The notes beneath the pieces were generated by a model that saw only the letters and a program-made list of their open reading frames with translations, was not told the origin of the DNA and searched no databases. Source: a virus. Taken from it: DNA of 23,551 bases. A program made the position numbers and the translations under genes. The stretch is from IMG/VR virus record IMGVR_UViG_3300042397_000536, positions 1 through 23,551 of that record; one strand, written 5' to 3'. Numbering within the stretch: position 1 is the first letter of the stretch; every line of letters starts with the position of its first letter. Of this stretch, positions 5,285-22,482 are shown piece after piece.

Positions 5285-5707
5285 ATGACTACATCATTCG
5301 AAGCACGAAAAATGCAGGTCCGACCGTTGAGCCAAGACATATTGGTGCACGGTATGGACATGGGGGAGCAGACAACTGCTGCAGGTATAGTGATCCACAG
5401 CGACGATGGCAAAGCTCATGGTGTTAAACCACGCTGGGCACAGGTCTATAAAGTAGGTGCTAGTTGTAAACTGGATGTTGAGCCAGGTCAATGGATACTG
5501 ATTGAACACGGTCGCTGGACCCGCAAGATCAAGATCGACGACGGTGAAAGCGTCAAAGAAGTCCAGAAAGTTGAAGTTTCTGCTGTGATAGCTGTCACAG
5601 ATCAAAAGCCCAATGATTTCTATATAGGTCAAGAATTCTCCAATGGATCTAGCATGAACATCAGTCCGCAAGATTTCCTACCTGGAAACATGTCCAAGAT
5701 CAGCTAA
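5285..5707 (+). CDS. GroES/gp31-like cochaperonin
   Basis: The 140-residue product aligns by eye with GroES: VRPLSQDILVHG at 12-23, a mobile-loop equivalent at 25-37 (MGEQTTAAGIVI, compare the GGIVL of GroES), AQVYKVG at 52-58, and the DVEPGQWILIEHG strand at 64-76. Cochaperonins cap the host GroEL. T4 gp31 replaces GroES so that the major capsid protein can fold in an enlarged cage. The C-terminus is longer than in GroES (about 97 residues) and gp31 (111). The conserved hydrophobic IVI tripeptide suggests that GroEL binding is retained. The stop overlaps the next ATG (TAATG). Confidence 0.8.
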   Translation: MTTSFEARKMQVRPLSQDILVHGMDMGEQTTAAGIVIHSDDGKAHGVKPRWAQVYKVGASCKLDVEPGQWILIEHGRWTRKIKIDDGESVKEVQKVEVSAVIAVTDQKPNDFYIGQEFSNGSSMNISPQDFLPGNMSKIS

Positions 5708-5946
5708 TGGGTTTCCGTAAAAGTTGGGACGTGGCAGATATATCAACTCAACTGCATTCTCTGGCCAGAGAATGCAGCAGTCCCTACAACGACGGATTCA
5801 CTGCCTTCTATGCCAAGCAGGATCTATATCAAATTAAATCTATCGTAGACACTGCGTTGGCAGAATCTCCAGACTTTGGTGATTTGGAGAAGGACTGGTT
5901 GCAGGAACAGGAAAAAAAGCGTATCATTAAGATATTAAAGTCTTAA
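5707..5946 (+). CDS. Small protein of unknown function
   Basis: This is a 79-residue protein translationally coupled to the GroES-like gene (TAATG). It is predicted mostly helical (ISTQLHSLARECSSPYND ... LYQIKSIVDTALAES ... KDWLQEQEKKRIIKILKS). I do not recognise a family. The neighbours are cochaperonin and nucleotide-metabolism genes in the same tight block. Confidence 0.6.
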   Translation: MGFRKSWDVADISTQLHSLARECSSPYNDGFTAFYAKQDLYQIKSIVDTALAESPDFGDLEKDWLQEQEKKRIIKILKS

Positions 5947-12646: not shown

Positions 12647-12676
12647 TTCTTGTTCAGTAAATCTGTAGTAAATACT

Positions 12677-12707
12677 TAGGACTACTTGACGTAGTCCTAT
12701 TTTTATT
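12677..12707 (+). terminator. Rho-independent terminator of the lysis cassette
   Basis: TAGGACTAC (12677-12685), a 5-base loop TTGAC, and GTAGTCCTA (12691-12699) form a perfect 9-bp stem followed by TTTTTATT. It lies about 30 bases after the last lysis gene. The loop and the first base of the 3' arm double as the -35 box of the next promoter. Confidence 0.85.
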
Positions 12708-12714
12708 GTATACT
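12686..12714 (+). promoter_or_regulatory. Sigma70-type promoter of dnaJ, fused with the terminator
   Basis: The -35 is TTGACG (12686-12691), the spacer exactly 17 bases, and the -10 is TATACT (12709-12714). Each box matches consensus at 5/6. The -35 sits in the terminator loop and the U-tract forms the spacer. The expected transcription start is about 12720-12722, at the ATG of dnaJ (12721), so the mRNA should be leaderless or nearly so. No Shine-Dalgarno sequence is present before the ATG. Confidence 0.75.
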
Positions 12715-12720
12715 ATAAAC

Positions 12721-13566
12721 ATGGATTATTACGCTACCCTAGGATTAAAAAGAGGCGCCACAGACGCCGAAATCAAAAAGGCCTATCGATCGATGGCTAT
12801 GAAACACCATCCCGATCGAGGAGGTGATCAGGCCAAATTCAAAGAAATTTCTACGGCCTACGAATCGCTCAGCGATCCGGACAAACGCAGAATGATTGAT
12901 GCTGGTATGGATCCAAATCAGCAGGGCTTTCACCATCAAGGTCAACAGAACCCATTCGAGTTCCATTTTGGCACAGGTAATCTAAATGATCTGTTTGGAA
13001 ACTTTGGCTTCGGAGGTGGATTTGGCCGAGAACCTTTAAGAAAAAATAAAACCCTAAACATCACTATAGAGATTTCTCTAGAAGATGTCTTACAGGGCAA
13101 AGAACTCAATGCAGAAATAACCATACCCGGCGGTAAAAACAAAATGATCAATATTTCTATTCCAGCAGGAATAGAACATGGTCAACAAATACGCTACGAA
13201 GGTATGGGAGATAATTCCATACAAGGTCTAAGACCGGGCGATCTCATAGTGAATATACTGGTCAAACAACATGCTCGTTTTCAACGAGAGCGCACATCAT
13301 TGATCCTAGAACAACAGATTTCTGTATGGGATGCTGTGTTGGGCACAGACGTAACCATACAGACCTTAGATAATAAAACACTCAGCATCACTGTGCCAGC
13401 AGGCACACAGCCTGATACTGTATTAAGCTGCAGGGGCGAGGGCCTGCCTAATATGAGAAATAGACAGCGAGGAAACCTTTTGGTTAGACTAAAAGTGCAT
13501 GTGCCACAGAATCTCAGTCAAGATCAACGAGCACAGATTAAACAATTACAACAACAGGGAATATAA
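12721..13566 (+). CDS. dnaJ: DnaJ/CbpA-like cochaperone (class B Hsp40)
   Basis: This is a 281-residue protein. The J domain (1-60) starts MDYYATLGLKRGAT and holds H30-P31-D32, the motif that stimulates DnaK ATPase. A Gly/Phe-rich linker follows (about 83-103, FGFGGGFG). The C-terminal substrate-binding beta domains (about 110-265) include LEDVLQGKE, IPAGIEHGQQIRYEGMGD and GDLIVNILVKQHARFQRE. There are no CxxCxGxG zinc repeats, so it is class B, like CbpA. It should recruit the host DnaK. The ATG at 12721 is preferred to a TTG at 12706, which lies upstream of the predicted transcript. It is followed four bases later by clpA. A host-derived acquisition is likely but its age cannot be judged. 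Confidence 0.9.
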   Translation: MDYYATLGLKRGATDAEIKKAYRSMAMKHHPDRGGDQAKFKEISTAYESLSDPDKRRMIDAGMDPNQQGFHHQGQQNPFEFHFGTGNLNDLFGNFGFGGGFGREPLRKNKTLNITIEISLEDVLQGKELNAEITIPGGKNKMINISIPAGIEHGQQIRYEGMGDNSIQGLRPGDLIVNILVKQHARFQRERTSLILEQQISVWDAVLGTDVTIQTLDNKTLSITVPAGTQPDTVLSCRGEGLPNMRNRQRGNLLVRLKVHVPQNLSQDQRAQIKQLQQQGI

Positions 13567-20957: not shown

Positions 20958-21218
20958 ATGAAAATACAAGAAATCATAGAATCAGCTACTGCCGGTGCTA
21001 CTTCAGCTGCCAATGTAGGTACTGTGGTAAATCCACATATTAGCCCAGGCAAAGCTCGAGGAAAGACCAGCTATTTAGGCAAGCCGGGGGGGCCTGGAGG
21101 TACTAAATCACCTCCACAACCCAAGGTTCAACAGCCTAAAAACAAGGACGGCACGGCCAAAAATGCCCTAGATCAAAGCACCAGTTTGTTTGGTGCTGGC
21201 TCTGCAGTAAAAAGATAA
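20958..21218 (+). CDS. Small Gly/Pro/Lys-rich phage protein
   Basis: This is an 86-residue protein starting MKIQEIIESATAGATSAAN, followed by a disordered Pro/Gly/Lys-rich middle and ending SLFGAGSAVKR. It resembles small virion-type proteins near this position in other aquatic T4-like phages (memory, not a search). The N-terminal IIE|S could be a head-protease site. It lies four bases after the previous stop. Confidence 0.5.
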   Translation: MKIQEIIESATAGATSAANVGTVVNPHISPGKARGKTSYLGKPGGPGGTKSPPQPKVQQPKNKDGTAKNALDQSTSLFGAGSAVKR

Positions 21219-21221
21219 ATA
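21214..21221 (+). promoter_or_regulatory. Late promoter (GATAAATA)
   Basis: AGATAAATACA overlaps the stop codon of the 86-residue gene and lies 32 bases before the ATG at 21254. The octamer is identical to those at 8627 and 16952. The next gene has its own AAGGA ribosome binding site, consistent with a separate transcript. Confidence 0.55.
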
Positions 21222-21253: not shown

Positions 21254-22126
21254 ATGGACTTTAAATCACTTATCACTAAAATCAGCTCAATGGATGATCA
21301 GATCTCCACGGTAGCTGCTCCCGTACTAGACAAAGCTGTGCAGCTCAACGAAGATGCTGCTCTGCGTGTGCTAGCAGGACAAAGCACCTATGTAGCTGAA
21401 GCCAAGAAAAAGAAAGAAGAAGATGTCAAAGAAGAAATGAAAACTGGCGATAAAAAACCTAGTTCTACAGGTGGCACAATAGAAAAGACTGCTACAGGCG
21501 TCAAACACCATGCTGGCAAGAACTATGGTGGCAGCAAGGCAGAACCTGAAGATGATGATGAAGATGCTCCTAAGTCCAAAAAGAAAGCTAAGAAAGAAAG
21601 TGTAGAACCCGAATTCAAAAGCAAATTCATGAAGATGGTTGAGGCCAAGAAAGAAGAAACAGATAAGAAAAAGAAGATGGCCAAGAAAGAAAAGATGGCT
21701 GAAGGATCTAAGCCAGACTTTCTAGACATCGACAAAGATGGTGACAAGAAAGAACCAATGAAGAAAGCTGCCGGAGAGAAAGGCGAAGATAAAAAAGACG
21801 GCGCTAAGAAAGGTATGAGTGCTGCTCAAGCCAAATACTTCGGCAAAAAGAATGAATCAAAGATGATGCCAGCAGGCAAAAAGCGTCCGGTGAAAGAATC
21901 AATAGAACAAAAACTAAGTTTTAAACAGATGGTACAGTTGGTGCAGGAAAGCGGAGGACAACAACAGATCGATCCTCTAGACAAATCATTGTTCAACTGG
22001 GCTACTCGTGTAGCTGCTAGCAAACTAGGTGAAGGCATGAAAGCAGAATTGTATGCTGGTCTAATCTATGAGCGCAACGGCGGTGTATTTGAAATGTACG
22101 ACGTGCTCAGCGAAGCTCAAAAATAA
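21254..22126 (+). CDS. Lys/Glu-rich modular late protein with EF-hand-like loop
   Basis: This is a 290-residue, highly charged protein. Residues 60-155 are mostly Lys/Glu/Asp, followed by FLDIDKDGDKKEP with D158, D160, D162 and D164, an EF-hand/dockerin-like Ca2+ loop (position 12 is Met rather than Glu, so binding may be weak). The C-terminal 75 residues form a helical globular domain (FKQMVQLVQESGG ... LFNWATRVAASKL ... EMYDVLSEAQK). The N-terminus contains VAE|A and other E-A/E-G steps resembling head-protease sites. A virion-internal or scaffold-type role is possible. AAGGA lies upstream, and a strong terminator follows. Confidence 0.6.
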   Translation: MDFKSLITKISSMDDQISTVAAPVLDKAVQLNEDAALRVLAGQSTYVAEAKKKKEEDVKEEMKTGDKKPSSTGGTIEKTATGVKHHAGKNYGGSKAEPEDDDEDAPKSKKKAKKESVEPEFKSKFMKMVEAKKEETDKKKKMAKKEKMAEGSKPDFLDIDKDGDKKEPMKKAAGEKGEDKKDGAKKGMSAAQAKYFGKKNESKMMPAGKKRPVKESIEQKLSFKQMVQLVQESGGQQQIDPLDKSLFNWATRVAASKLGEGMKAELYAGLIYERNGGVFEMYDVLSEAQK

Positions 22127-22146: not shown

Positions 22147-22176
22147 AAGCCAGTCATTCATTGACTGGCTTTTTTT
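22147..22176 (+). terminator. Rho-independent terminator
   Basis: AAGCCAGTCA (22147-22156), a 5-base loop, and TGACTGGCTT (22162-22171) form a 10-bp perfect stem running into seven T residues (22170-22176). It lies 20 bases after the charged late gene. The 3' arm contains the -35 box of the following promoter. Confidence 0.9.
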
Positions 22177-22189
22177 ATTCCTGTATAAT
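22161..22189 (+). promoter_or_regulatory. Sigma70-type promoter fused with the terminator
   Basis: TTGACT (22161-22166) and TATAAT (22184-22189, perfect -10) are separated by exactly 17 bases that include the terminator U-tract. The transcript would start near 22196, leaving a leader of about 20 bases with a TGGAG before the ATG at 22216. It would drive the dsbA-like gene, the membrane protein and the DNA polymerase. Confidence 0.8.
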
Positions 22190-22215
22190 TAACACATAAC
22201 CTGGAGTCAATATAC

Positions 22216-22482
22216 ATGACAAAAATGTACGGTCCCGAAGAAAAAGCCAAACTAGAAAGATTGATCACTGAAGGCTCAAATGTACTACGTGAGCTTGAAG
22301 ATCTGCAAGAAGGTCTCAAAGAAACTGTGAAAGCTGTCGCAGAAGAACTGCAGATCAAACCTTCAATCATCAACAAGGCTATACGCATAGCACACAAAGA
22401 CAATTGGAAATCTCATGAAGATGAATGGAACGAGATTGAAATGATACTAGGTGTTACTAAACGTTTGCCCGAGAAGGACTAA
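22216..22482 (+). CDS. dsbA: DsbA-like dsDNA-binding protein (T4 DsbA type)
   Basis: This is an 88-residue protein (T4 DsbA has 89). The C-terminal half (VAEELQIKPSIINKAIRIAHKDNW ... DEWNEIEMILGV) parallels the T4 DsbA segment with the pattern ELGVxxxxxNxxxxxYHKDN and a following acidic helix. The N-terminal half is a charged coil. T4 DsbA binds double-stranded DNA near late promoters and can enhance late transcription. This is unrelated to the disulfide oxidoreductase of the same name. Identity is by eye and moderate. It is the first gene behind the promoter at 22161. Confidence 0.6.
   Translation: MTKMYGPEEKAKLERLITEGSNVLRELEDLQEGLKETVKAVAEELQIKPSIINKAIRIAHKDNWKSHEDEWNEIEMILGVTKRLPEKD

Follow-up and report, generated by a model that had tools for sequence, protein, structure and literature searches.

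A probable terminator-promoter composite ahead of dsbA in a T4-type phage fragment and its counterpart at dnaJ

Introduction

Why should a transcription terminator and a promoter occupy the same few dozen bases in front of a phage gene? This question is raised by the intergenic region preceding dsbA in IMG/VR record IMGVR_UViG_3300042397_000536, of which we analysed positions 1 to 23,551 (hereafter the window). This 23.5-kb fragment belongs to a T4-type phage, a classification founded on its DsbA, DnaJ, Clp-type ATPase and clamp-loader-like genes together with late-promoter boxes of the T4 type; it also contains lysis genes. The gene served by the composite, dsbA (22216-22482; the features described at the dsbA and dnaJ sites of the window are all on the + strand), encodes a DNA-binding protein of the T4 type that is associated with late promoters: its product matches PHROG 639 (E = 7e-12), scores 24.2 bits against PF11126 (Phage_DsbA), slightly below the cut-off of 25, and is 46% identical to that of a gene annotated DsbA in phage MIJ3. 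Upstream lies an ORF (21254-22126) which is predicted to be late, being preceded by the late-promoter box ATAAATA (21215-21221), and whose transcripts would end at the terminator described below.

The composite ahead of dsbA

The original prediction described a 10-bp stem with TTGACT in its 3' arm and TATAAT 17 bp further on, and both the sequence and the folding calculations bear this out. The predicted intrinsic terminator (22147-22178), which is kept in relatives, consists of a 10-bp stem with the arms AAGCCAGTCA (22147-22156) and TGACTGGCTT (22162-22171), a 5-nt loop, TTCAT (22157-22161), and a tract of seven T (22170-22176), so that the stable stem and subsequent U-tract of an intrinsic terminator are both present. 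The predicted folding energy of the hairpin is -16.1 kcal/mol (z = -6.3), and none of 200 shuffled sequences was equally stable. The -35 element TTGACT (22161-22166) is situated within this hairpin, its first T being the last loop base and the remainder belonging to the 3' arm, and the -10 element TATAAT (22184-22189) follows after a spacer of exactly 17 bp (22167-22183), from which a transcription start at about 22196 would be expected. The promoter agrees with the sigma-70 consensus (TTGACA/TATAAT at 17 bp, which may not be that of the host) in 11 of 12 positions and is the top sigma-70 match within its half of the window. Terminator and promoter together span one 45-base stretch. A late promoter was also sought at the dsbA composite and not found; the TAAAC present there varies among relatives.

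We consider it probable that this stretch combines a sigma-70 early promoter with an intrinsic terminator, the latter shielding dsbA from late transcription that arrives from upstream. This reading draws on the directly established sequence, geometry and conservation of the composite, on the hairpin being kept separately at dnaJ and on the late box at 21215 before the upstream ORF. A polymerase arriving from the upstream late gene would transcribe the GCCAGTCA/TGACTGGC hairpin and the U-tract and halt in the promoter spacer, while during early infection (the early timing is assumed) the host sigma-70 polymerase would start dsbA near 22196 from the same DNA, using TTGACT in the 3' arm and TATAAT past the U-tract. 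The overlap may serve compactness as well as insulation, and the dnaJ site would be a second instance, to which a late-promoter box has been added before the hairpin. If so, one and the same sequence can provide a phage with both insulation and initiation at fixed regulatory loci.

Conservation at dsbA

The 80 dsbA loci retrieved from IMG/VR, which stem from uncultured T4-like phages represented by environmental DNA, yielded 44 leaders that were distinct and long enough to judge, and 39 of these leaders contain the composite (this number includes L036 and L065, whose wider loop was missed by the script and in which the composite was recognised by eye). TTGAC and TATAAT are invariant across 34 aligned distinct leader sequences. 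Within the stem, six pairs never vary, the inner three are lost in some sequences, and one pair changes from A-U to G-C on both sides in six sequences; covariation at dsbA is therefore weak, there being a single compensatory pair in a stem that for the most part does not vary. A protein-binding site could be a partial cause of this stem conservation. In many dsbA leaders, for example L035, a palindrome, GACTATATAATAGTC, is centred on the -10 element; it is absent from the window.

In the five dsbA leaders without the composite, another gene sits directly before dsbA. In the L026 contig the composite precedes the inserted gene, and in L032 the hairpin is found about 500 nt upstream of dsbA. The upstream ORF belongs to the same family in 70 of 72 composite loci, a different gene being located there in L033 and L038. 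In L220 (from the L026 contig) and in L302 the place expected for dsbA, directly after the composite, is taken by a gene whose product starts with MTDPIHKYKAI.

The counterpart at dnaJ

A partner composite had been described at 12677-12714, with TTGAC in the hairpin and the U-tract as promoter spacer, and it proved to be just so. The second predicted terminator hairpin (12677-12699), located before dnaJ, has a 9-bp stem and a 5-nt loop that is exactly TTGAC; it is overlapped by an early promoter, TTGACG-17-TATACT (12686-12714), which matches sigma-70 in 10 of 12 positions, and the start codon of dnaJ (12721-13566, encoding DnaJ and DnaJ_C domains) lies 6 nt past the -10 element. A late-promoter box, GTAAATA (12668-12674), stands directly before the hairpin. 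Hence the central proposal, that terminator and sigma-70 promoter share sequence and that the U-tract is the promoter spacer, holds at both sites and is conserved in relatives.

The dnaJ leaders are informative because the two functions come apart in some of them. All 47 distinct leaders possess hairpin and T-tract, and about 41 of them have the sigma-70 promoter as well (the script scored 43, of which L179 and L192 were judged by eye to be chance matches elsewhere in the leader). In the other six (L149, L179, L192, L198, L200, L210) TTGAC and TATAAT are lost while hairpin and T-tract are kept, and the hairpin is therefore selected in its own right. Five of its nine stem pairs have changed on both sides, the covariation score being 0.294, compared with 0.150 for shuffled sequences and no more than 0.092 for slid controls, and all 30 matches to the dnaJ-type hairpin pattern precede dnaJ, with none elsewhere.

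These leaders bear on two other explanations of the overlap. According to the first, put forward in the original prediction, a promoter-bound polymerase acts as a roadblock to late transcription and the hairpin is secondary, as the overlap of terminator and promoter would allow; yet the covariation of the stem and the persistence of the hairpin where the promoter is lost indicate that the RNA hairpin does the stopping, which renders a roadblock highly improbable. According to the second, a polymerase that terminates in the U-tract remains bound to the DNA and restarts at the overlapping promoter, so that upstream transcription would feed dsbA. The release point would indeed fall within the promoter spacer, and there is a published precedent: after termination, bacterial RNA polymerase can diffuse along the DNA and, provided that it retains sigma, begin again at a promoter close by (PMC6978380). 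However, a late polymerase would carry gp55 rather than sigma-70, and since the terminator is retained in promoter-less dnaJ variants, such a hand-over is not its main role; we regard this explanation of the composite as unlikely and retain that of an insulating terminator fused to an early promoter.

Frequency in the window and in relatives

A strict search for the composite returned two instances in the window, namely the dsbA and dnaJ sites only, compared with two hits in total in 1500 dinucleotide-preserving shuffles. A looser search in six long relatives gave 14 composites versus about 1 by chance, a few of the 14 probably being chance hits themselves. The pattern search against a shuffled background, which had been suggested as a check, thus revealed an excess over chance and further conserved instances. 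Intergenic regions commonly hold terminators and promoters alike, and an ordinary terminator might happen to overlap with an ordinary promoter; in view of these shuffle counts and of a geometry fixed across dozens of divergent leaders, the likelihood of such a coincidence is negligible, and we reject it.

When promoter-like sites associated with hairpins were tallied in a census, real genomes gave up to 11 each and shuffled ones 0-1, and three registers could be distinguished. The first, with the -35 element inside the hairpin, amounts to about 1-3 copies per genome, mainly at the two orthologous loci dsbA and dnaJ, and copies within a genome differ in stem sequence; one is also found in KVP40 and two in MIJ3, whereas the census found none in T4. 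In the second, the hairpin is located in the spacer (ten copies in RB49, three in relative G002), and in the third (relatives G001 and G002) it lies just upstream, TTGACA starting nine nt past the stem. Around one kind of promoter the stem-loop can therefore occupy different registers. These phages as a rule pack terminators and promoters tightly, but the exact dsbA/dnaJ design is rare per genome. A blastn search of the dsbA composite against cultured phages returned chance-level matches only (E 2-8).

The broader suggestion that this is a genome-wide compact design marking late-to-early borders can be upheld in part only. The design appears more than once and has been kept in relatives, but its copies are few (1-3 per genome) and its loci fixed. 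As for the borders, dsbA fits, given the late box at 21215 before the upstream ORF, whereas dnaJ carries a late-promoter box of its own and is therefore no simple late-to-early border. A widely dispersed mobile repeat was likewise considered and ruled out by the locus-bound occurrence of the composite, the dnaJ type being found at dnaJ in 30 of 30 cases and the upstream family being shared by 70 of 72 loci.

Among individual sites, several early promoters in L111, L112 and L086 (G002, G001) begin at a distance of exactly 9 nt from the preceding terminator stem (T-tract, GG, TTGACA). A third composite, GGGCTTGACAGGCCC, is present in G002 (L102:12846-12880) before an apparent homologue of the window ORF 5707-5946, which itself is without a composite.

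Relation to known composite motifs

Composite promoter-terminator elements as a kind are already known in T4-type phages and are not new here; the literature terms them PeSLs, promoter(early) stem-loops (Arbiol 2010; Comeau 2014; both cited in PMC4503421). The window composites share with them an early sigma-70-type promoter and a stem-loop in one short intergenic unit of fixed spacing, carried by a T4-type phage. RB49 contains ten copies of the form TTGAC-AGGGGATCGGTGATCCCCT-ATAAT, in which the stem-loop fills the 17-bp spacer between -35 and -10, whereas here the hairpin contains the -35 element and the U-tract forms the spacer; it should be added that this PeSL geometry was derived by us from the RB49 sequence and that the published definition may differ. 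Neither window composite has its stem-loop in the spacer: at both window sites, as in G001, the -35 element is part of the hairpin, and 9-12 nt separate the end of the hairpin from the -10. In relative G002 the RB49-type spacer hairpin and the hairpin enclosing the -35 are both present. Furthermore, PeSLs occur as many near-identical copies in hyperplastic regions, in contrast to the few, locus-bound copies with unlike stems seen here. Judged from sequence, the dsbA/dnaJ composite would work like a PeSL, differing from that of RB49 in register, copy number and fixed position. A literature search for a -35 element inside a terminator hairpin retrieved no usable report.

One might also see in the composite a recombination cassette of the PeSL kind, which would owe its conservation mainly to the homology it offers for gene swapping. 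Gene content is syntenic at the composites apart from some contigs in which another gene follows; this is the case in the L026 contig and in L302, and L033 and L038 differ upstream, as a cassette would have it. Against this stand the single copy of each type per genome, the near-constant upstream family and the invariable position of the dnaJ type described above, and in the -35-in-hairpin geometry no identical within-genome repeats, the substrate for such recombination, were seen. A cassette role appears quite unlikely to us, and insulation combined with early initiation is again the preferred interpretation.

Late-promoter boxes and the nested dnaJ leader

The late promoter of T4, TATAAATA, is gp55-dependent; it comprises a TATA box of 8 bp, which precedes the start by about one helical turn (PMC2988020). 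Similarly, in all six long relatives no 7-mer is more enriched within the 45 nt preceding ORFs than ATAAATA (30 observed versus 1.1 expected in G001). GTAAATA and TTAAATA, the boxes found at dnaJ, differ as variants of the T4 consensus and are likewise enriched in several of the six. In all 46 distinct dnaJ leaders concerned, the promoter-less ones included, TAAATA stands 3-4 nt before the GG of the stem, so that late RNA may start inside the stem and escape the terminator. An RNA start six nt after TAAATA would leave a stem of only -1 to -7 kcal/mol in place of one of about -12 kcal/mol; starts one or two nt earlier would leave -8 to -10 kcal/mol, and the idea of escape therefore hinges on the exact late start. 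It is favoured by the leaders lacking the early promoter, where little expression of dnaJ would be expected if late RNA did not get past the hairpin. In 27 of 39 leaders 6 nt separate the end of the early -10 element from the AUG, and ahead of dnaJ at 12709-12723 there is no visible Shine-Dalgarno sequence; with the -10 element so near the AUG, a leaderless early mRNA is predicted.

We tentatively propose, as a possibility about which we remain rather doubtful, that the dnaJ terminator, nested with a late and an early promoter in about 50 bp, sorts transcripts by origin: late RNA starting in the 5' arm would lack the full stem and read through, RNA from upstream would stop, and the early mRNA, with its first base at or adjacent to the AUG, would be leaderless. 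If true, this terminator would discriminate transcripts by their start point without any antitermination protein. A related principle is known from the leaders of T4 gene e, soc, 49 and I-TevI, where late transcripts starting inside inhibitory hairpins lose them (PMC3014915). The position of the dnaJ late box would likewise deprive late RNA of part of the hairpin; the T4 hairpins, however, block ribosome binding, whereas that of dnaJ looks like a transcription terminator, and dsbA is outside the scope of this comparison. The dnaJ leader would then be a transcriptional counterpart of the gene e hairpin and offers a simple test of start-dependent terminator escape.

Late box, terminator hairpin, early promoter and dnaJ start codon are nested in the 56 bases from 12668 to 12723. 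A late-gene counterpart of the composite was observed in L088, L109 and L128: there a late-promoter box and a start codon lie no more than about 12 nt behind a terminator.
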